From assembly GCF_003075075.1 (NCBI RefSeq), contig NZ_QCYM01000010.1:1-64000 (forward strand): 64,000 nt of DNA, in the 5' to 3' direction. Below, piece after piece: positions 11,555 through 23,829 of the stretch. This stretch comes from Labrenzia sp. 011. Lineage in GTDB: Bacteria > Pseudomonadota > Alphaproteobacteria > Rhizobiales > Stappiaceae. A model generated the notes under the pieces. The model saw nothing but the letters and a program-made list of their open reading frames with translations. It searched no databases and was not told the origin of the DNA. A program made the translations under genes and the position numbers. Positions within the stretch are counted from its first letter, which is position 1. Each line of letters begins with the position of its first letter.

Positions 11555-13138
11555 ATGGCGCTTCCGGTGATGCCTTTCTTCCGTCTGGTGCGGGCGGGAT
11601 ACGTGATGGCGCGCGAGGGCGTGTTCGGCCTCGTCTCCCTTCCCGACCTGCCGGCCGGTCCCAGATTCGCCATTGCGGCGGCGCGGCTGCTGGAGCGCCG
11701 GGCCGTGAAGAGCAAGAGCGCGGACCTGCGCCTTTCGGATGCCCTGAACAGACTCGGCCCGTCCTACGTCAAGCTCGGCCAGTTCCTCGCCACCCGTGCG
11801 GATGTGGTCGGCAAGGACGCGGCCCGCGAGCTGTCGGCGCTGCAGGACAGGCTTCCCGCCTTCGATGACGAGGAGGCCCGCAACGCGGTTTCCGAACAGC
11901 TGGGGCAGCCGGTCGAGGAGATCTTCGCCGAATTCGGAGAAGCGGTCGCCGCCGCCTCCATCGCGCAGGTGCATCCGGCCGTGATCCGCGGCACGGACGA
12001 TACGGAACGCAAGGTCGCGGTCAAGATACTGCGGCCGGGGGTCGCCCGCCGGTTCCAGCGCGACCTGGAAAGCTTCTACCTTGTCGCGCGCCTGGCCGAG
12101 CGCTTCCATGCGCCTTCCCGGCGCCTCAGGCCGGTTGCCGTCATCGACACGCTGGCGCAATCCGTCGCCATGGAAATGGATTTCCGCCTGGAGGCGGCCG
12201 CCCTGTCGGAAATGGCCGAAAACACCGCCGGAGATCCGGGGTTCCGGGTGCCGGAAGTCGAATGGCTGCGCACCGCCAAGGGCGTGCTCACCATGGAGTG
12301 GATCGACGGCCGGAAGATGTCGGACATCGAGGGCATGCGGGAGGAGGGGCATGACCTCGAAGCACTCGGCGCGGCGGTCATCCAGAGCTTCCTGCGCCAC
12401 ACCCTCCGGGACGGCTTTTTCCATGCGGACATGCATCAGGGCAATCTGTTCGTGCAGAGCGACGGCACGCTTGTCGCCGTCGACTTCGGCATTGTCGGCC
12501 GTCTGAACAAGCGCGAGCGCCGCTTTCTGGCGGAGATCCTGTTCGGTTTCATTACCCGCAACTACAAGCGCGTGGCGGAAGTGCACTTCGAGGCCGGCTA
12601 TGTGCCCGCCCATCAGGATGTGGACATGTTCGCCCAGGCGATCCGCGCCATCGGCGAGCCGATCCACGGGCACGACGCCAGCGAGATTTCCATGGCCCGG
12701 CTGCTCACCCAGCTCTTCGAGGTGACCGAACTTTTCGAAATGCGCACCCAGACCCAGCTGCTCATGCTGCAGAAGACCATGGTCGTGGTCGAGGGCGTGG
12801 CCCGTTCGCTCAATCCGAATCTCGACATGTGGCGGACGGCCGAGCCGGTCGTGGGAACCTGGATCCGGGAAAACCTCGGCCCGGCCGGCAAGCTCCGCGA
12901 TGCGGGGGATGCCTTTTCCGCGCTGGCCCGCATCGCCAACGACATGCCGCTGTTCGCCGACAGGGTCGGCCGCATGTCGGAAGAGCTGGAAAAGATGACC
13001 GCTTCAGGCCTGCGTTTCGACCGGGAAACCGCCGAGGCCATCGGCAGGGCGGAAGCGCGGCACACCCGCTCGGGCAGGATCGCACTCTGGGTGATCGCCC
13101 TTTCGCTCGGCGCGATTGCGGTGCATCTCATCGTCTGA
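11555..13138 (+). CDS. ubiB: UbiB, atypical kinase/ATPase for ubiquinone biosynthesis
   Basis: ABC1/ADCK-family protein needed for early hydroxylation steps of ubiquinone synthesis. The 527-residue product contains the family KLGQFLATRAD segment, the Ala-rich nucleotide loop with VAVKILRPGV, MHQGNLFV and DFGIVG, the equivalent of the kinase DFG. A hydrophobic C-terminal stretch (RIALWVIALSLGAIAVHLIV) should anchor it in the inner membrane. It follows ubiE after three bases. A near-palindrome at 13148-13163 separates it from the convergent aminotransferase gene. Confidence 0.95.
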   Translation: MALPVMPFFRLVRAGYVMAREGVFGLVSLPDLPAGPRFAIAAARLLERRAVKSKSADLRLSDALNRLGPSYVKLGQFLATRADVVGKDAARELSALQDRLPAFDDEEARNAVSEQLGQPVEEIFAEFGEAVAAASIAQVHPAVIRGTDDTERKVAVKILRPGVARRFQRDLESFYLVARLAERFHAPSRRLRPVAVIDTLAQSVAMEMDFRLEAAALSEMAENTAGDPGFRVPEVEWLRTAKGVLTMEWIDGRKMSDIEGMREEGHDLEALGAAVIQSFLRHTLRDGFFHADMHQGNLFVQSDGTLVAVDFGIVGRLNKRERRFLAEILFGFITRNYKRVAEVHFEAGYVPAHQDVDMFAQAIRAIGEPIHGHDASEISMARLLTQLFEVTELFEMRTQTQLLMLQKTMVVVEGVARSLNPNLDMWRTAEPVVGTWIRENLGPAGKLRDAGDAFSALARIANDMPLFADRVGRMSEELEKMTASGLRFDRETAEAIGRAEARHTRSGRIALWVIALSLGAIAVHLIV

Positions 13139-13178
13139 CCGGTTCCGTCTTCCGTACGGGAGACAGTGTGCCGGCAGG

Positions 13179-14354
13179 TCAGGCGGCCGCGCGGGCATCG
13201 GCGAAGGCATGAATGCGCCGCATTGCCTCGCGCAGCATCTCGTCCGGAACGGTCAGCGCCACCCGGATCAGGGATTGCGCGTTCTGGCCGAACGACGGAC
13301 CGGGCATGACCGCGACCCCATGGGTCTCAAGCAGGCTCCAGGCGAATTCTTCCCCGTCCAGTCCGGTCCCCGACACGTCGATCATGATGAACATGCCACC
13401 GGATACCTTGCCGGTCTTGAGAGAGGCGCAGCCTGCCAGGTCGCGCGCAATCGACCGGGCGCGCGCGGCATAGCTTTCACGCATGCGCTGGGCCGTGTCG
13501 AATGTCCCGCGCAGGGCCGCTTCGGTCATATCCGCGATGAAGGGCTGGTTGCCGAACAGAATGGTTTCGGAAATCGGCAGGAGCTTCGTGCAGAATTCTT
13601 CCGGTCCGATCGCCCAGCCGCTGCGAAAGCCTGTTGCCGCAAAGGTCTTGGAGATGGAGGAGGTGACAATTGTCCTGTCCCGAAGAGCCTCGATCTCGAG
13701 TGGTGAGGCGAATTCGCCCTCGAATATGAGGTCTTCGTAGACCTCGTCGCAGACGATCCAGAGGTCGTGCTCGCAGGCCAGGGCTCCAAGCTCCACGAGC
13801 GTATCCCGGTCGAGCAGGGAGCCGGTCGGATTGTGCGGTGTGTTGAGCAGGAGGACGCGGCTGGCCGGCGTGATGGCGCGGGCAAGGTCCGCCGGGCGCA
13901 TGATGAAACCGTCCTCGATGTTCAGCGGGACGGGTTGCAGGATTGCGCCGGGGGCGCGAATGACACCTTCATAGGTCGCGTAATAGGGGTCTCCGACCAG
14001 AACGCCGTCTCCGGCTCCCGCAAGCGCCGTGATGACGGCATACAGGGCGGTCTGGGTTCCCGGAAAGCACAGGATATTGGCGCCGGTGATTCCGGGAAAG
14101 CGCGGCGCATATTTCTCGACCAGCGCGTCCAGAAGTCCCTGTTCGCCGCGTCCGTTGGAATAATGGGTCCGGCCCCGGCGCATGGAGGCCGCGCAGACAT
14201 CGACCAGCTGCGGATCGACGGGAATATCCGGTTCGCCGATCGTCAGTTCGATCACCTCCTCACCGGCGGCAGCCCTCTCCCGGGCGGCGTTGTGCACGGC
14301 CCATTTTTCTCCGCCGAGGTTGGCGAGGCGATCTGTAATACCTGCGTAGCGCAT
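13179..14354 (-). CDS. PLP-dependent class I aminotransferase (AruH-like)
   Basis: 391-residue fold-type I aminotransferase converting an amino acid to its 2-oxo acid. The PLP-binding Lys lies in TSSISKTFAATGFRSGW. LLLNTPHNPTG and CDEVYEDLIF carry the conserved Asn, Asp and Tyr that hold the cofactor, and the substrate-carboxylate Arg is near the C-terminus. By memory the sequence resembles Pseudomonas arginine:pyruvate transaminase AruH more than AspC; the true substrate is not known. The frame extends to 14444, but the ATG at 14354 has AGGGA upstream and begins a normal N-terminus. It lies 16 bases after tetR and is surely co-transcribed with it. Confidence 0.85.
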   Translation of the reverse strand: MRYAGITDRLANLGGEKWAVHNAARERAAAGEEVIELTIGEPDIPVDPQLVDVCAASMRRGRTHYSNGRGEQGLLDALVEKYAPRFPGITGANILCFPGTQTALYAVITALAGAGDGVLVGDPYYATYEGVIRAPGAILQPVPLNIEDGFIMRPADLARAITPASRVLLLNTPHNPTGSLLDRDTLVELGALACEHDLWIVCDEVYEDLIFEGEFASPLEIEALRDRTIVTSSISKTFAATGFRSGWAIGPEEFCTKLLPISETILFGNQPFIADMTEAALRGTFDTAQRMRESYAARARSIARDLAGCASLKTGKVSGGMFIMIDVSGTGLDGEEFAWSLLETHGVAVMPGPSFGQNAQSLIRVALTVPDEMLREAMRRIHAFADARAAA

Positions 14355-14370
14355 CTGGACGTCCCTGTAT

Positions 14371-15021
14371 TCAAGTAGGCTGCTTTTCGCCCGAAAGGCT
14401 GCCCGCCGGCAGCTCGAGCAGGCGTTCGCAGGCTTCGGTGACAAGATCTGGTAGTATGGCGCGGCTGTAGAGGCCCGAATTGAGGGAGCCTTCCATCCAC
14501 AGACCGTCGATCAGGCCGTTCACCGCAATGGCATGACGGCGGCACGCGGCGGCGCTTCGGGGAAGGCCATGGGCGGCAAGGACTGGCTCGATCAGGCCTT
14601 CCAGCAGTGAGAGATAGTCCCTGTAGCCTTCGCGGTGAATGTCGGCGAAATCGGTCTCGTAGCGGACACGGCCGATAAAGGTTGCCCACAGGGATACTTT
14701 CTCCTCGGACAGGTTGGGCATGGTCATATTGGCAATCAGGAAGTGGCGCAGCTGATCGTTCGCGTCGCCTGTGGACTGGCGGGCCCTTGTTTCCGCTTCC
14801 GCGGTGAGCTGCCCGATCAGATAGGCGTAGGCACTGGTGATCAGACCGTTCTTGCTGCCGAAATAATGGCGCAGGAGCCCCGCGGTGACACCGGCCTCTT
14901 CCGCGATCCTGCGCACGGTCGCGCCCTTCAGTCCCTGTTGCGCGACACAGGTCAGCGTTGCCTCGAGAAGGGTGCGTTTGCGCTCGTCAAGCGTCAGGCG
15001 GCGGAAGGCTTTTCGGCTCAT
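14371..15021 (-). CDS. TetR-family transcriptional regulator (BetI-like)
   Basis: 216-residue one-component repressor. The N-terminal helix-turn-helix spans about residues 34-58 (GATVRRIAEEAGVTAGLLRH followed by YFGSK), the standard TetR pattern, and the rest is a helical ligand-binding domain. The ATG at 15021 begins MSRKAFRRLTLDERK; the frame is open upstream to 15087. A near-perfect palindrome 36 bases upstream (15057-15072) and a second copy beyond the next gene (16119-16134) are probably its operators, giving autoregulation and control of the neighbours. The ligand is unknown. It is co-transcribed with the aminotransferase gene. Confidence 0.88.
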   Translation of the reverse strand: MSRKAFRRLTLDERKRTLLEATLTCVAQQGLKGATVRRIAEEAGVTAGLLRHYFGSKNGLITSAYAYLIGQLTAEAETRARQSTGDANDQLRHFLIANMTMPNLSEEKVSLWATFIGRVRYETDFADIHREGYRDYLSLLEGLIEPVLAAHGLPRSAAACRRHAIAVNGLIDGLWMEGSLNSGLYSRAILPDLVTEACERLLELPAGSLSGEKQPT

Positions 15022-15056
15022 TGTCGAAGGGGTGGTCCATGGGTTCGATAGTGTAG

Positions 15057-15072
15057 TTATACATTTGTATAA
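15057..15072. promoter_or_regulatory. TetR operator candidate, copy 1 (tetR promoter)
   Basis: Plus strand TTATACA-TT-TGTATAA, a 7+2+7 perfect inverted repeat. It lies between the dehydrogenase stop and the tetR start, where a repressor would block tetR transcription. The same 7+2+7 pattern recurs at 16119-16134. Confidence 0.7.
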
Positions 15073-15109
15073 AATTGTGGAAAGCACAAGCCGGCACCGC
15101 GTGGCCGGG

Positions 15110-16066
15110 TCAGTATCCCTGGTGCCGGTCGATTGCTAGGCGCGGCCGTCTGCCCTGAAGAAGCTCGACGGCAGAGGCGTGGATCTGTTCCGCCACCACG
15201 CTCGGTGTGGAATCGCTGGCGATATGCGGCGTGATCCTCAGCCGGGCATCCTCCCAGAACGGATGGCTTTCCGGCAGGGGTTCTTCGCGGAAGACATCGA
15301 GGCTGGCCCCGGCCAGCTGACCGCTGTCCAGAGCCGCGGCGAAATCGGCTTCGTGCAGGTGCTCGCCCCGGCCGATCTGGATCAGCCAGGCACCTGGGGC
15401 AAGCTGGTTGAAAAGGCGACCGTTCAGGATGTTTTCCGTTTCGTTCGTCAGCGGCAGCACATTGATTGCGATCCGGCTGTCCCTGCAGGCCAGATCCAGC
15501 GCGCCGGAGCCTGAATGGTAGCTGATGCCCGCCAGTGGCTCTGCCGGTTCGGAGCGGCAGGCAACCGCGACGGAAAAGCCCATGGCGCCCAGGGCGCGGG
15601 CAATCGCCGCCCCCATTGTGCCGTTGCCAAGCACCGCGATGCGGGTTTTCTTCGGCGGTGACATGGGCAGTGGGTTCCAGACGCGCGCGTTCTGCTGGTC
15701 CTTCATCTGCGTGAACGAACGCAGAAAATGGAGCACTTCGTGCGCCGCGTATCCGGCCATCAGATCCGCCTGGTGGGGATCGCGCACCCGGCAGATCAGG
15801 GTTTCGCCGGCAAGGCTCGGGTTGGCGATGAGGGCATCGACCCCCGCACCGACGGACATTGCCATCTCCAGGTTCGGATAGCGGGCAAAGGCGTCGTCGT
15901 CCGGCAGCCAGCAGACCGCGAAGCGTATGGTGGCGGGATCGGAGACTTCCTCCGGGTCCAGCAGCCGCACCTGCCTGCCGCTGCCCTTGAAGTCGAGGCC
16001 ATAGAAGCTTTTCAGATCCATCGTGCTGCTCAACAGCACGCCGTCGATCGTCTCTGCCTGTTCCAA
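15110..16066 (-). CDS. D-2-hydroxyacid dehydrogenase, glyoxylate/hydroxypyruvate reductase A (GhrA) type
   Basis: NAD(P)H-dependent reductase of 2-oxo acids, or dehydrogenase of D-2-hydroxy acids. The 318-residue product has a Rossmann motif VLGNGTMGAAIARALGAMGF, the catalytic Arg in LIQIGRGEHL, the Glu in DVFREEPLPESHPFW and the His in RITPHIA, matching the GhrA layout. The start is uncertain: the TTG at 16066 has AGGAG seven bases upstream and keeps the first beta strand (GVLLSST), whereas the ATG at 16021 would cut it. The gene lies between the two palindromic operators, upstream of tetR on the same strand. The substrate is not determined. Confidence 0.82.
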   Translation of the reverse strand: MEQAETIDGVLLSSTMDLKSFYGLDFKGSGRQVRLLDPEEVSDPATIRFAVCWLPDDDAFARYPNLEMAMSVGAGVDALIANPSLAGETLICRVRDPHQADLMAGYAAHEVLHFLRSFTQMKDQQNARVWNPLPMSPPKKTRIAVLGNGTMGAAIARALGAMGFSVAVACRSEPAEPLAGISYHSGSGALDLACRDSRIAINVLPLTNETENILNGRLFNQLAPGAWLIQIGRGEHLHEADFAAALDSGQLAGASLDVFREEPLPESHPFWEDARLRITPHIASDSTPSVVAEQIHASAVELLQGRRPRLAIDRHQGY

Positions 16067-16118
16067 ATGATGTCTCCTGCGGCGCCTGTCGGAATTTTCC
16101 CTTGCCCCTCGCATCTAG

Positions 16119-16134
16119 TTATACAAATGTATAT
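16119..16134. promoter_or_regulatory. TetR operator candidate, copy 2 (dehydrogenase/aldolase divergent promoter)
   Basis: Plus strand TTATACA-AA-TGTATAT, the same palindrome as 15057-15072 with one change in the last base. It sits between the divergent starts of the dehydrogenase (16066) and the aldolase (16208) and could control both. Confidence 0.7.
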
Positions 16135-16207
16135 TAAGGAGTAAAGCGTTCGGGAGGTCGGCGTCCGCAAGGGCGATGCGGCCGCAGTCATGTGAAGGGA
16201 AAGATCG

Positions 16208-16969
16208 ATGTTGCAGACCAGCCGGTCCGGCGATGTGAGCAAGGCCGAATATGAAACCCGGGTCGAGCTCGCGGCCTGTTACCGGCTCGCGGCGCATTTC
16301 AGGATGTCCGATCTGATCTATACCCACATCACGGCGAAGGTGCCCGGAGAGCCCGGGCATTTCCTGATCAACCCCTATGGCTACATGTGGGAGGAGATCA
16401 CGGCCTCGTCGCTGGTGAAGATCGACGTGGAGGGCAACAAGGTCTGCGACAGCCCCAACCGGGTCAATCCGGCGGGCTTCACGATTCACAGCGCTGTCCA
16501 CCGGGCCCGCGGCGATGCGGCCTGGGTCATGCACACGCATACGAGGGCAGGGGTCGCCGTTTCGTCGTTGAAGGAGGGGCTGCTGCCCTTGAACCAGATC
16601 GCCCTGCAGTTCTACGGCCGTATCGGCTATCACGACTATGAGGGAATTGCGCTCGATCTTGAAGAACGCGAGCGGATTGTCGAAAGTCTGGGAGCCTATC
16701 CTGCGCTGATCCTGCGCAACCACGGTCTGCTCACCGTCGGAGAAAGTGCCGGGCAGATGTTTTCCAACATGTTCTACCTCGACCGGGCCTGCGAGATCCA
16801 GCAATCCACGCTGTCAATGGGATTGCCGCTTGCGCAGATCGGGGACACGCTGGCGGCGCATGTCACCCGGCAATACGACCAGATGGCTTTCGACGACGGA
16901 GACTTGCTGCTTGAATGGGATGCAATGATGCGCCTTGCGGATCGCATCGATACTGGTTTTCGCGAATAG
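16208..16969 (+). CDS. Class II aldolase/adducin-family protein
   Basis: 253-residue protein of the L-fuculose-phosphate aldolase fold. Metal ligands are visible as His109 and His111 in VMHTHTRAG and His172 in LILRNHGLLT. Characterised members cleave sugar phosphates or other hydroxy-carbonyl compounds, or act as decarboxylases or epimerases; bacterial relatives of this subtype, with the N-terminal YRLAAHFRMSDLIYTHITA stretch, have no well-established substrate that I know of. Transcribed divergently from the dehydrogenase gene, with a shared palindromic operator between them, so it is probably in the same TetR-controlled pathway. Confidence 0.85.
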   Translation: MLQTSRSGDVSKAEYETRVELAACYRLAAHFRMSDLIYTHITAKVPGEPGHFLINPYGYMWEEITASSLVKIDVEGNKVCDSPNRVNPAGFTIHSAVHRARGDAAWVMHTHTRAGVAVSSLKEGLLPLNQIALQFYGRIGYHDYEGIALDLEERERIVESLGAYPALILRNHGLLTVGESAGQMFSNMFYLDRACEIQQSTLSMGLPLAQIGDTLAAHVTRQYDQMAFDDGDLLLEWDAMMRLADRIDTGFRE

Positions 16970-17550
16970 ACCAATCGAGTAGATTTTTCAGTCCTTTGTA
17001 ATGTTGGTGTCGTATTTTCATGAAACTGTTCAGCAACATGTAAATTGTTGCTTCAATTTTGATCCTGCCCACAAAATAGTCAGTCGGGTCCTTGACTTGG
17101 CGGGGCTGCGTGTTAGCCTTGCCGCATCCTGATTTGCCGGACTTTCGGCATTTCGCGGGCATGAAATGTTTGATCCGGTCTGTGTCGCGCAGGAATGGGC
17201 GATTGGGAAGACTGTGAAACGCTTGCCCGTGAAACAAGGCAGAGGGTTGAAATATCGCCGGCTCCCCGGCGATGTTGGGCCAAGATACGACTGAGAGCCC
17301 GAACCTCCTGGTTGCGCTTCTGTAGCCGACCAGTTTGCCAAACAAGCACACTTTCTCCGGTGAGCATTTCAGACATCTGGAATGCAGGTCACCGGGCCAC
17401 AGGGAAGCTGGCCGACAAGAGTCCGGTTATGGAAAGCCGTGTCCTTGCCGGAAAGCCGGATCCCCTCGACGTGCGTCGGCCAGCGGTGACTGCTGTCCGG
17501 CCGCGGCACCTCGTCAGCAAGCTGTTGAAGCAAGCCAAGGAACTGGATTC
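16970..17550. other. 580-base gap with hairpins and no firm gene
   Basis: Two clear stems are visible: AGCAACA/TGTTGCT with a 7-base loop (17032-17052) and ATCGCCGG-CTCC-CCGGCGAT (17254-17273). A TTGACT at about 17092 could be a -35 element for the genes that follow, but no convincing -10 was found. An open frame with a GTG at 17360 runs to a stop at 17572, overlapping the start of the next gene by 22 bases. It may encode a small protein of about 70 residues that I do not recognise. The region looks less coding-like before about 17350. Confidence 0.4.
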
Positions 17551-17751
17551 ATGGACATTACGAACGCAATAGACTGCAACGGATTATCCGCAGCGCCCAC
17601 CCTTTTGCGGATCAAGCAGGCGCTGGTTGGGCTGGTCGACAACGCCCTGCCGTTGGAGATCCTCGTGGACGCAGGGTGCGACCAGGACAGATTGCGCCGT
17701 TCGCTCGGGCGGCACGGTGAAGCCGTTCGGCTGGTCTCCCGTCCGCAATAA
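17551..17751 (+). CDS. TusA/SirA-like small protein lacking the catalytic cysteine
   Basis: A 66-residue protein starting at the ATG with AAGGA eight bases upstream. It follows the TusA outline: an initial strand ending in Asp then Gly-Leu (IDCNGL), a Pro after it, a helix LLRIKQAL, a second strand LEILVD and a final helix LRRSLGRHGE. In true sulfur carriers the helix start is CPxP; here the region reads SAAPT, so the Cys is replaced by Ala and it should not carry persulfide. A Cys two residues before Gly-Leu is not the usual site. It may instead be a regulatory or scaffold protein. The methyltransferase gene follows 89 bases later on the same strand. Confidence 0.5.
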   Translation: MDITNAIDCNGLSAAPTLLRIKQALVGLVDNALPLEILVDAGCDQDRLRRSLGRHGEAVRLVSRPQ

Positions 17752-17840
17752 CGCTTTTCAGGCTTCAGGGGCGTCCGCATCGCGCCCGCGAACAGCCGTG
17801 TCCGCTGCGGCTCCCGCGCGGAAAAATTTGCAAACACGTC

Positions 17841-18854
17841 GTGTCCGGGCCGGGAGACAGCTTGCCGGCGGGATGCGACAGCCTGTTCGATGCGGCAGGC
17901 AGACAAGGAACTGATTTTTTGCCCGATCTGAATGTTGACGAAATGCCAGCCGGAACGTCTGTTCCGGGTTCTGCCGATGGGATCAGTCCGGAAGTGCCGG
18001 ATTTCGCTTTCGATCCGACCGACCCCTGGACGGAGACGTTCCAGAAAGGTCTGGAGCGCGCCGGGCTGTCCGGCAAGCGTATTTATGAAGTGGGTATCGG
18101 CACCGGGATCAATGTGGCCTTCCTCCTGCGCATGTGCGGGGTCGCGCATGTGTCGGGCAGCGATCTGGACCCGCGGCTGGTTGTTCTGGCCGAGCGCAAC
18201 GTCAGGAGCCTGGCTCCGGAAGAAGCCGACATGTTCCATCCGGTCAGAGGCGCCGTGAGCCTGATCGATACCGACGAAGCCCGGACCCGGATCGCCGAGA
18301 CCGATGTCATCATCGCCTGTCTGCCGCAGGTTGGCGATCCCGGTGACGGGCGGCTGACGGCTTTTCGCGAGGCCCAGTCCGTCGAACTGCCGGAGAGCGC
18401 GGAAGAAAAGGCTGACGACCACATCGCTCATTATTATCCTTGGGCGGCTTTCGACCAATATCCGTTCAATTCGGTAGGACTGGGTCTGAACGAGGCGCTG
18501 CTGCGCCGCATCCGGGACCACGCGCCGGCCGCGCAGGTGATCATGAATTTCGGTTGCCGGATCGGAACCGGCATTATTTTCGAAATGTTCGAAGCCAATG
18601 GATTCCGGCCGGAAAAGCTGTATTCCCAGATCGTCCGCCAGGATGCGGGGACCGATATCTCGTTCTTCGTCATGCTTGAAAAGGCATTGAAGGGCACCGG
18701 GCTGGAAAAGGATCTGGTCTGCGCGTTTTTCGCGGATGCGGAGGGCGCCAGCCCCTTGTCCGCCAGCGAGGCGCAGACCCTGCTCGACCGGAACCCGGAT
18801 ACGCCGCTCTACCACGAAGTCTGCGTGATCCGCGCCGTACCGGCCGCGGCGTGA
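17841..18854 (+). CDS. SAM-dependent methyltransferase resembling methionine S-methyltransferase (MMT/MmtN-like)
   Basis: 337-residue class I methyltransferase. Motif I is YEVGIGTGINV (about 82-92), with an acidic residue at about 108-110 after the second strand. The later features IACLPQ, NSVGLGLNEAL, NFGCRIGTGI and QDAGTDISFFVMLEK follow the order seen in the N-terminal methyltransferase domain of plant methionine S-methyltransferase (remembered as CIPQ, FGLGL, NMGGRPGQG, AADTDIS). Bacterial MmtN enzymes of DMSP synthesis belong to that family. Methionine or a related thioether is therefore a possible substrate, but this is inference. The GTG start is weakly supported; an ATG at 17943 is an alternative. 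It is preceded by a TusA-like gene. Confidence 0.72.
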   Translation: MSGPGDSLPAGCDSLFDAAGRQGTDFLPDLNVDEMPAGTSVPGSADGISPEVPDFAFDPTDPWTETFQKGLERAGLSGKRIYEVGIGTGINVAFLLRMCGVAHVSGSDLDPRLVVLAERNVRSLAPEEADMFHPVRGAVSLIDTDEARTRIAETDVIIACLPQVGDPGDGRLTAFREAQSVELPESAEEKADDHIAHYYPWAAFDQYPFNSVGLGLNEALLRRIRDHAPAAQVIMNFGCRIGTGIIFEMFEANGFRPEKLYSQIVRQDAGTDISFFVMLEKALKGTGLEKDLVCAFFADAEGASPLSASEAQTLLDRNPDTPLYHEVCVIRAVPAAA

Positions 18855-18865
18855 CGACAGTGTCC

Positions 18866-18886
18866 CGGGCAGCAAGCGGCTGCCCG
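18866..18886. terminator. Hairpin between convergent methyltransferase and alkB genes
   Basis: CGGGCAGC-AAGCG-GCTGCCCG, a perfect 8-bp stem with a 5-base loop, lies between two converging genes. No U-tract follows on either side, so it is at best a weak shared terminator. Confidence 0.4.
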
Positions 18887-18902
18887 CCACCTGCCCGGAC
18901 CC

Positions 18903-19529
18903 TCATGCGGGGTGTGTCACCCGTCTGAGCGTGAGGTTGATCCGTCCGCCGTTCTTCAGCAGCGTCGATGTGCCTGTAAGCACCCGGTCGATACCGTGGA
19001 AGGCGAGACGCGCCTCTCCTGCGAGCACGACGACGTCACCGGACTGCAGCCGGAAGGACTTCGTCGGATCCTTCCGGGTCAGGCCGCCGACGCGGAAGGT
19101 GGCCGTGTCGCCGAGGGAAACCGAAATGACCGGGGCCTCGAACGTCTCCTCGTCGCGATCCTGGTGCAGGCCCATTCGGGCGCTTTCCTCATAATAGTTG
19201 ATGAGGCAGGCTTCCGGGTCGGGTGCCTGCGGCGCAATGTCTCTCCACAGGGCGGTCAGGCGCGCCGGCAGCGCCGGCCAGGGAAGTCCGGTGTCCGGGT
19301 GAAGCGGCTGATAGCGGTAGCCGTTGATATCCGAAACCCAGCCGAGCGGACCGCAGTTGCTCATCCGGACGGTAAAGGGCTTGCCGGTCCGGGGCATGAC
19401 GGGTCTGTAGAACGGTGCCCGGGCGACAACCGCGCGGATTTCCGCCAGCAAAGCCTCCTGGGCATCGCGGTCGAAATAGCCGGGCAGATAGCCGAGGCCG
19501 CTCGGGCCGTTGAGTGACAAATCCTTCAT
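18903..19529 (-). CDS. alkB: AlkB-type DNA dealkylation dioxygenase
   Basis: Fe(II)/2-oxoglutarate-dependent enzyme that removes methyl groups from 1-methyladenine and 3-methylcytosine. The 208-residue product has the iron ligands His and Asp in LHQDRDE, the second His in RLAFHGIDRV, and the 2-oxoglutarate Arg in RINLTLRRV. The segment MSNCGPLGWVSD also matches E. coli AlkB. It is a single gene diverging from dnaK. The neighbouring SAM methyltransferase is convergent and unrelated in operon terms. Confidence 0.93.
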   Translation of the reverse strand: MKDLSLNGPSGLGYLPGYFDRDAQEALLAEIRAVVARAPFYRPVMPRTGKPFTVRMSNCGPLGWVSDINGYRYQPLHPDTGLPWPALPARLTALWRDIAPQAPDPEACLINYYEESARMGLHQDRDEETFEAPVISVSLGDTATFRVGGLTRKDPTKSFRLQSGDVVVLAGEARLAFHGIDRVLTGTSTLLKNGGRINLTLRRVTHPA

Positions 19530-19642
19530 GACGAACTATTAGCGCATCGCGTGACGGGCCGCAGCCCCCGCCTCCGGTAACTTTCCGGGAAGAAATATCG
19601 GGCATGAGAGGGCCTGTCTGCTATGTGTCCGTCCACAGACGG

Positions 19643-19674
19643 CTTGCAGGCAAAGTTTCATCCACCTATATAGC
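19643..19674 (+). promoter_or_regulatory. RpoH (sigma-32)-type promoter of dnaK
   Basis: CTTG (19643-19646), an 18-base spacer and CCTATATAG (19665-19673) match the alphaproteobacterial heat-shock layout CTTG-N17/18-CYTATNTNNG. It lies about 130 bases before the dnaK ATG. Similar elements precede hslV and nfuA in this window. Confidence 0.7.
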
Positions 19675-19804
19675 ACTCAAGCTTCGCGCCATTCCCGAAC
19701 CGAAAGTTCCGGCGCGATGTCCGGGACAATCCCGGAACCCAACTGAGAGGAGCCGGACTGACGCCTTCATGGGTCTATTCGGTTTGCTAGAAAGAGAGGC
19801 AGAT

Positions 19805-21730
<1,926 letters not shown>

Positions 21731-21739
21731 ACCAGACCT

Positions 21740-21767
21740 GCGGCCGGCCCGGTAACGGGCTGGCCGC
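21740..21767 (+). other. Stable hairpin in the dnaK-dnaJ gap
   Basis: GCGGCCGGCCCG and CGGGCTGGCCGC pair over 12 bp (one G-U) around a GTAA tetraloop, ten bases after the dnaK stop. No U-tract follows. Such a stem could lower read-through or protect the dnaK mRNA 3' end, so that DnaK is made in excess over DnaJ. Confidence 0.6.
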
Positions 21768-21893
21768 GTCATTCATGGCGCCGGATGCTTGCCTGCCTGA
21801 TGACAAGGGCGCTTGTGCCCGGCGCCTTCGCCGTAATGGGCGCCGGACAGATCCTGGCAGCCGACGGTGCAACAACAAGACCGAGAGATCTTG

Positions 21894-23021
21894 ATGTCAA
21901 AACGTGATTTCTATGAAGTGCTGGGTGTTTCGCGCGACGCGGATGGCAAGGTGCTGAAAAGCGCCTATCGCAAGATGGCCATGGAGTACCACCCGGACAG
22001 GAATCCGGGCGATTCCGAAGCCGAAGCAAAGTTCAAGGAAATCAACGAAGCCTACGATGCGCTGAAAGACGAGCAGAAGCGGGCCGCTTACGACCGTTTC
22101 GGCCATGCCGCCTTTGAAAATGGCGGCTTTGGCGGCGGCGGTGGTGGCGGCGCGCAGGATTTCTCGTCGACCATGTCGGACATATTCGAGGAATTTTTCG
22201 GGATGGGCGGCGCTCGCCGCGCCGGCGGACGCGAACGCGGGGCGGACCTGCGCTACAATCTGGACATCTCGCTGGAAGATGCCTTCACCGGCAAGACGGT
22301 GGAGATCGAGGTCCCCTCCACCATCACCTGCGAAGAGTGTTCCGGTTCCGGCGCAAAGCCTGGCACCAGTCCGTCCACCTGCCGCACCTGCGGTGGCGCC
22401 GGCCGCGTGCGGGCGGCGCAGGGCTTCTTCACGCTGGAGCGCACCTGCCCGACCTGTCAGGGTCGCGGTCAGGTCATCACCGACCCCTGCGATAGCTGCG
22501 GCGGCTCCGGGCGCAAGACCCAGGAGCGCACCCTGTCGGTCAATATTCCGGCAGGCATCGAGGATGGCACCCGCATCCGTCTTGCCGGTGAGGGCGAGGC
22601 CGGTGTCCGTGGAGGTCCCGCGGGCGATCTCTATATCTTCCTGTCGGTCCGCCCGCACGAGCTGTTCCAGCGCGACGGCGCGGATCTTTACTGCAGGGTG
22701 CCGATTTCCATGTCGACGGCCACTCTCGGCGGCCAGTTCGATGTTCCCACCGTCGACGGATCGACCAGCAGGGTGAAAGTCCCCGAAGGCACGCAGACCG
22801 GCAAGCAGTTCCGGTTGCGCGGCAAGGGCATGCCGATCATGCGCTCCAGCCAGCACGGTGACATGTATATTCAGGTGACCGTTGAAACGCCGACCAATCT
22901 GACCAGGCGCCAGCGTGAACTTCTTGCCGAATTCGAACAGGAATCCTCGGGCGAAAATCATCCCGAGTCCGCGGGCTTCTTCTCCAAGGTGAAGGAATTC
23001 ATCGACAATCTCGGTGCGTGA
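21894..23021 (+). CDS. dnaJ: Co-chaperone DnaJ (Hsp40)
   Basis: 375-residue type I J-protein that delivers substrates to DnaK and stimulates its ATPase. The J domain carries HPD in [10 protein letters not shown], followed by a Gly/Phe-rich linker with an uninterrupted Gly run, four zinc-binding CxxCxGxG repeats ([32 protein letters not shown]) and the C-terminal substrate domain. The ATG at 21894 begins [16 protein letters not shown]. It follows dnaK by 163 bases. Confidence 0.97.
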
Positions 23022-23166
23022 CCCCCGGGCAAATCGATCATGCCTCCTCCGGTCAGGGGGACGAAATCGATGCTCCGTGATATTTAAGTGCGCAATCCGT
23101 GCGCTCGCAGGTAGCATCCGCCTGCAAACCTCCCTATATTCGCCGGATGGATGCGGGTGAGGTAAC

Positions 23167-23829
23167 ATGCTGAAGCGTAACGGTAATCGCGTCGAGTCTC
23201 TCAGGCGGAGGCTCAACAGGGTCAATGCCGTGCGAACCAGGGTGCTGGATGAGGTCAAGTTCATCCGCTCCTGGGCGCAGAACCCGTTGCGAACCGGCGC
23301 CGTGACCCCTTCCGGCCCGGACCTTGCCGCCCGGATGGCATCCTTCCTGTCGCCTTCGCCCCGTTCCCGCGTGGTGGAACTCGGACCGGGGACCGGCGTC
23401 GTGACCAGGGCTCTTGTCGAGCGCGGCTTCGCTCATGACCATCTCAATCTCGTTGAATACAGCGCCGATTTCTGCGACCTTCTGAACCTGCGCTATCCGG
23501 GGATGACGGTTCTTCAGGGGGACGCCTATGCCCTGCGGGCAACGCTGAACAAGCCCGGCGGTTTTCTCGCGGGCAACGCGCAACAGAACCACCTGCTTGA
23601 CGGCATTGTGTCCTCCCTGCCGCTGCTGACCCGTCCCGAAGCGGTCCGGCACGCACTGCTGGAGGAAGCTCTGGAGCTGCTCAAGCCGGGAGCACCGTTC
23701 ATACAGTTTTCCTACGGCCTTGCCGCACCGGTCAAATTGACCGGGCGCGGGGTATCGGTCATTTCCTCCGAGTGGGTCTGGAAAAATCTTCCGCCCGCGC
23801 GGGTATGGGTCTACCGCAAGGGGCACTAG
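23167..23829 (+). CDS. pmtA: Phospholipid N-methyltransferase (PmtA-like)
   Basis: 220-residue SAM-dependent enzyme of the rRNA-dimethylase-like PmtA type, which methylates phosphatidylethanolamine toward phosphatidylcholine at the inner membrane face. The SAM motif is VVELGPGTGVVTRALVERG. The preceding GAVTPSGPDLAARMA and a basic amphipathic N-terminus (LKRNGNRVESLRRRLNRV) agree with membrane-binding PmtA enzymes of rhizobia and Rhodobacter. Enzyme identity is by memory of the family. It is a single gene downstream of dnaJ. Confidence 0.8.
   Translation: MLKRNGNRVESLRRRLNRVNAVRTRVLDEVKFIRSWAQNPLRTGAVTPSGPDLAARMASFLSPSPRSRVVELGPGTGVVTRALVERGFAHDHLNLVEYSADFCDLLNLRYPGMTVLQGDAYALRATLNKPGGFLAGNAQQNHLLDGIVSSLPLLTRPEAVRHALLEEALELLKPGAPFIQFSYGLAAPVKLTGRGVSVISSEWVWKNLPPARVWVYRKGH

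Follow-up and report, generated by a model that had tools for sequence, protein, structure and literature searches.

Gene organization of the locus

In Labrenzia sp. 011, the interval between ubiB, which ends at position 13138, and alkB (18903-19529, minus strand) is filled by six genes. All coordinates refer to the window, i.e. the whole stretch of 64,000 nucleotides that was analysed (contig NZ_QCYM01000010.1, positions 1 to 64,000). The features are as follows:

13139-18902: whole cassette, flanked by ubiB and alkB
13179-14444, minus strand: class I/II PLP aminotransferase (PF00155, E 1e-54), aspartate/methionine aminotransferase-like; probable start MRYAGIT at 14357
14371-15087, minus strand: TetR-family regulator, BetI-like (PF00440 and PF13977); probable start MSRKAF at 15021
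15110-16114, minus strand: GhrA-like D-2-hydroxyacid dehydrogenase (PF02826; best NCBIfam model GhrA, below cut-off; GhrA homologues in the PDB)
16208-16969, plus strand: class II aldolase/adducin-fold protein (PF00596), homologous to NovR/TqaM
17551-17751, plus strand: 66-amino acid TusA-like protein upstream of mmtN (weak PF01206 signal)
17919-18854, plus strand: mmtN, predicted methionine S-methyltransferase (Group I), from the 7vvv match, active-site residues and dN/dS; start TTG 17919 or ATG 17943

The aminotransferase, regulator and dehydrogenase genes lie on the minus strand, divergent from the other three. The regulator matches the BetI model TIGR03384 at E 3e-26, below the cut-off of that model. 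Purifying selection and parallel divergence are seen in all six genes. The surroundings are an ordinary chromosomal region, in which the cassette adjoins alkB, dnaK, dnaJ and a PmtA-like methyltransferase gene (18903-23829; the last judged by eye).

The mmtN product

The open reading frame at 17841-18854 (plus strand) runs for 337 codons free of stops. It had been singled out in the original prediction as a methyltransferase resembling methionine S-methyltransferase because of the order of its motifs, and all of these (GxGTG, here as GIGTG, CLPQ, GLGL, NFGCRIGTG and DAGTDIS) are present. The best match in the structural database, by far, is the assayed MmtN of Roseovarius indicus, known as a crystal structure (7vvv; E 2.8e-132, residues 48-336), with 195 of 289 positions identical (67.5%) in an ungapped alignment, and these values place the match far beyond chance. 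In Pfam and NCBIfam, the profile search met no MmtN model and gave weak class I methyltransferase matches alone, of which PrmA, PCMT and Methyltransf_25 were set aside as names for the protein. DsyB was rejected as its identity, since 7wdq is not among the matches and the dsyB of this genome is a separate gene.

In R. indicus MmtN, SAM is bound by D69, S101, L102 and C121 and methionine by E127, R132 and E250, Y160 acts as a gate, and P169 and R183 make up the phosphate pocket through which the trimer forms (Peng et al., 2022, PMC9135737). The SAM site is kept in full in the window protein (GIGTG, D108, S140, L141 and C160, in window numbering), as are R171, D166 and E289 for methionine binding, the gating Y199, and P208 and R222 of the phosphate pocket (equivalent to P169 and R183). 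E127 is replaced by Asp (D166), a substitution reported in other MmtN proteins (PMC9135737). Either an unrelated methyltransferase family as best match or the absence of methionine-binding residues was to count against the original prediction; what we find is MmtN as the best match by far and conservation of all methionine and SAM residues defined by structure and mutagenesis. Group I MmtN is described by an identity above 50% (PMC9135737) and, judged by its sequence, the window protein is a member. It is almost certainly an MmtN like that of R. indicus, with the same phosphate-centred trimer, and from this homology it would methylate methionine on sulfur.

The gene is under purifying selection, with a dN/dS of about 0.09-0.16 against five relatives. 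The closest loci are those of Roseibium marinum and Labrenzia sp. OB1 (89-90% identity); loci of Agrobacterium, Roseovarius and Acidimangrovimonas show 58-66% identity. The sulfonium chemistry and marine setting suggested from the motifs also hold, the host being a Roseibium (Labrenzia) relative that possesses dsyB as well.

One element of the prediction finds no support. GTG 17841 is an unlikely start, because the frame upstream is unconserved in the two closest relatives: of the 34 residues ahead of ATG 17943, the last eight alone are maintained. These relatives and the window share (3/3) the sequence (L)PDLNVDE following TTG 17919 and an AAGGAA upstream of it, which makes TTG 17919 or ATG 17943 the likelier start. 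In one relative (L005), ATT is found at the position of the window ATG 17943, favouring TTG 17919.

The 66-amino acid protein

The small gene at 17551-17751 had been overlooked. It is under purifying selection (dN/dS 0.16-0.23) and lies ahead of mmtN, either immediately or separated by one gene, in 11 of 11 aligned loci from several genera. D8, C9, G11, L12, R20, K22, Q23 and L38 are invariant in the 11 homologs, the first three forming a D8-C9-x-G11 motif. Likeness to the TusA family consists of a weak profile similarity, seen in 6 of the 11 homologs; for the window protein, PF01206 scores 16.2 bits against a gathering score of 28.6. The catalytic cysteine of the TusA CPxP motif, placed by the motif spacing, would correspond to A14/A15, and none of the 11 homologs has a cysteine there. 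An AlphaFold model (pLDDT 80) submitted to Foldseek gave no TusA structure among the matches listed (best E 0.18), so that a TusA fold can be claimed only weakly, and a sequence search of the PDB gave chance matches only. We use "TusA-like" in this restricted sense, the protein lacking the CPxP cysteine and falling below the Pfam gathering score.

The aldolase-fold protein

The product of 16208-16969 has the class II aldolase fold (PF00596) and resembles NovR (33% identity over 168 amino acids, E 2e-24) and TqaM (E 4e-22). H109, H111 and H172 align with the histidines of NovR and form a three-His metal site of the NovR/TqaM type. The catalytic glutamate of aldolases appears to be replaced by Gly90, a position that we counted from the HxH motif by comparison with FucA, and this argues against aldol chemistry. 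The family also includes true aldolases and non-oxidative decarboxylases, and the closest solved relatives are 3ocr, of unknown function, and adducin rather than NovR or TqaM. An AlphaFold model built with five close homologs reached a pLDDT of 36 and was left unused. TqaM carries out oxidative decarboxylation of a 2-hydroxy acid (PMC11880133), and CloR/NovR perform the same kind of decarboxylation with O2 at a three-His iron site, CloR shortening a 2-oxo acid twice (PMC13111500). By its fold and three conserved histidines, the window protein may work like these enzymes, with the difference that it would act on a sulfonium hydroxy acid; we do not file it as a member of their group.

In the same seven Roseibium genomes, the dehydrogenase and the aldolase-fold protein each have a paralog, and the genes for these two paralogs lie about 7 kb from each other (e.g. 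L037, G034:C8:50000-68000, and L038, G009:C5:509000-527000), a hint that dehydrogenase and aldolase-fold protein act together. By eye, these loci also contain dipeptide-type ABC transporter, M20 and acetylpolyamine-deacetylase-like genes and look like catabolic transporter/amidohydrolase loci. A further paralog of the aldolase-fold protein (68% identity; L023/L024) was considered for a link to DsyB and rejected, its locus looking like one for carnitine-type degradation; the neighbours, identified by eye, are acyl-CoA dehydrogenase, CoA-ligase, beta-keto-acid cleavage and 3-hydroxyacyl-CoA dehydrogenase-like genes.

Distribution of the cassette

The six-gene block is kept in five other Roseibium loci (L002, L005, L003, L008 and L025), some of which have other flanks. 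The cassette is present in 6 of 45 Roseibium genomes, at several chromosomal sites. A search with mmtN found the gene in 6 of 37 genomes of the genus and in none of a sample of 384 other alphaproteobacteria. Among the 45 genomes, the 66-amino acid protein occurs in all six with mmtN and in none of the other 39. Orthologs of the aminotransferase (76-92% identity) are confined to the same 6/45 genomes, as are those of the dehydrogenase and the aldolase-fold protein, and more distant paralogs of all three are found elsewhere. In one relative (G034, locus L041), ubiB and alkB are separated by 79 bp, exactly the place that the six genes fill in the window, and the cassette of that relative is on another contig. 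Three of the six genomes are closely related and share the cassette site, so the six are not phylogenetically independent and a simple chance calculation overstates the evidence. The sites differ in the remaining genomes, and this makes it convincing that the six genes form one unit.

The mmtN loci examined outside Roseibium are organized differently. In five hosts, Roseovarius confluentis, Acidimangrovimonas sediminis, Agrobacterium vitis, Rhodovulum sp. P5 and Rhizobium lusitanum (loci L007, L004, L006, L026 and L027), mmtN is preceded by genes for a class III aminotransferase, the 66-amino acid protein and a LysA-like decarboxylase. The decarboxylase and the aminotransferase correspond by family to the SMM decarboxylase and DMSP-amine aminotransferase of the amine route (PMC12542666), and neither is found in the Roseibium mmtN cassettes examined. 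Since both kinds of cluster contain the 66-amino acid protein, a link of this protein to MmtN is more likely than one to the decarboxylase.

Two of the five loci have peculiarities. In Rhodovulum sp. P5 (plasmid pRGUI01, L026, 8001-8863), the match to mmtN is split into two pieces that overlap and lie in different frames, and the annotation treats them as parts of two hypothetical proteins, pointing to a frameshift or sequencing error. In Rhizobium lusitanum 629 (plasmid p_4, L027), mmtN and the decarboxylase gene adjoin NAD-binding/YbaK-like and PKS genes, perhaps a cluster for a DMSP-derived secondary metabolite on the plasmid of a root-nodule isolate.

Discussion

The cassette as a whole is best explained as a set of genes for DMSP synthesis along a keto-acid route rather than the amine route, a reading to which we assign a probability of about 0.55. 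MmtN would convert methionine to S-methylmethionine (SMM), and the class I aminotransferase would convert SMM to 4-dimethylsulfonio-2-oxobutyrate (DMSOB). The GhrA-like dehydrogenase would reduce DMSOB to 4-dimethylsulfonio-2-hydroxybutyrate (DMSHB), and the aldolase-fold protein, as a three-His metal enzyme of the NovR/TqaM kind, would use O2 to turn DMSHB into DMSP and CO2. The BetI-like TetR protein would be the regulator of the cassette, and the TusA-like protein a factor associated with MmtN. The enzymatic steps after SMM are all put forward from gene content; the aminotransferase and the dehydrogenase belong to broad families in which the sequence does not reveal the substrate. The conversion of DMSHB to DMSP has been described as an oxidative decarboxylation (PMC3986220; PMC5395565). 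Figure legends in one paper and one review already name DMSOB as an intermediate (PMC9135737; PMC13360808), so that the compound is not new, but the assignment of genes to it would be. More tentative is the wider proposal that the Roseibium cassettes represent a second path by which bacteria turn SMM into DMSP, with the aldolase-fold protein as a DMSHB decarboxylase and a dedicated TusA-like protein assisting MmtN. Our literature search found no link between decarboxylases of this class and DMSP.

MmtN itself is a known enzyme, and the gene was correctly recognised in the original prediction; what is new is the variant gene set, with its testable alternative route to DMSP. The window protein resembles the Group I MmtN of Roseovarius indicus B108 (PDB 7VVV/7VVW/7VVX; PMC9135737) in its marine alphaproteobacterial host, its sequence and all of its pocket residues, and differs in the Asp at E127 and in downstream genes that are not of the decarboxylase/class III aminotransferase type. 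The absence of these Streptomyces-type genes beside mmtN does not exclude Group I membership, since a second type of cluster, that of Novosphingobium, is allowed (PMC9135737). The small set of mmtN loci recovered here included none from Novosphingobium, and a cluster of that type resembling the Roseibium cassette might lower the novelty of the latter. Plant MMT (Group III) shares the motif order of the N-terminal methyltransferase domain and the predicted reaction (PMC9135737), but the relation is distant, with about 30% identity stated for MmtN and MMT. Its C-terminal aminotransferase domain is missing here, the frame ending at 18854 and giving no aminotransferase match in the profile search.

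Alternatively, MmtN may make SMM for the canonical amine route, with the SMM decarboxylase, DMSP-amine aminotransferase and aldehyde dehydrogenase encoded elsewhere in the genome and the cassette neighbours doing something else. This is the documented bacterial route downstream of SMM, and both the MSMT-SMMDC-DMSPAAT-DMSPADH pathway of S. mobaraensis and BurB-BurI-BurD-BurE start, like the Roseibium cassette, from methionine to SMM (PMC12542666); the cassette differs in lacking the SMM decarboxylase and DMSP-amine aminotransferase. The genome does contain several class III aminotransferases (best match 43%). In Spartina, the search for SMM decarboxylases had to extend over several families of decarboxylases (PMC11464771), and an unrelated SMM decarboxylase could be present elsewhere in this genome. 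However, the search for a homolog of the SMM decarboxylase gave no match better than 29%, probably the ordinary lysA, and the canonical genes that are missing from the cassette are found beside mmtN in every non-Roseibium locus examined. A location elsewhere also leaves the strict co-occurrence of mmtN and its neighbours unexplained, and we regard it as unlikely.

The genome carries key genes of two DMSP pathways, as dsyB is found at another locus (G000:C19:72764-73783, minus strand, L032; 7wdq, E 1.7e-130). Bacteria with both mmtN and dsyB have already been noted (PMC10989797), and environmental surveys have recorded Labrenzia mmtN (PMC7494906). With dsyB in the genome, DMSP production alone would not prove the keto-acid route. 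The last two intermediates proposed here, DMSHB and DMSP, are those of the DsyB transamination pathway and DsyGD (PMC10989797; PMC11306096), the differences being that methylation would come first and that the proposed decarboxylase has a class II aldolase fold whereas DsyD is ureidoglycolate-lyase-like. Since the chemistry is the same but for the order of methylation, the aminotransferase, dehydrogenase and aldolase-fold protein might instead serve the DsyB pathway, from Met via MTOB to MTHB, which DsyB would methylate to DMSHB for decarboxylation by the aldolase-fold protein, with MmtN as a parallel entry. All six genomes with mmtN indeed have dsyB, but the three genes travel with mmtN (6 of 45 genomes) and not with dsyB (28 of 45). 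The overlap of mmtN with dsyB is weak evidence, having a chance probability of 0.05, or 0.009 for close dsyB, with phylogeny ignored in both values. A role of the aldolase-fold protein as the general DMSHB decarboxylase of Roseibium was also considered and rejected, its ortholog being missing from many genomes with dsyB. Service to the DsyB pathway is on balance improbable.

Little probability remains for a cassette that makes or degrades another sulfonium compound, such as a chain-shortened or aldol product of DMSOB, rather than DMSP as its end product: the versatility of class II aldolase-fold enzymes, the double shortening by CloR and the paralog pair in transporter-rich, catabolic-looking loci would fit it, but the gene set amounts to a complete and redox-sensible route to DMSP, a known product of bacteria with mmtN, and Gly90, at what we take to be the aldolase glutamate position, speaks against aldol chemistry.

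In conclusion, we propose that the mmtN cassette of Labrenzia sp. 011 and its relatives encodes a keto-acid route to DMSP. The methylation route to DMSP, one of the major sulfur compounds of the sea, is traced with mmtN as its marker gene. Should mmtN lead into another route in Roseibium, gene surveys based on SMM decarboxylase would overlook that route. According to PMC11306096, no enzyme for DMSHB decarboxylation has been identified in L. aggregata and in most other producers of DMSP, and the cassette supplies testable candidates both for this step and for the transamination of SMM. If the route exists, one sulfonium product would be reached with methylation and transamination in either order.
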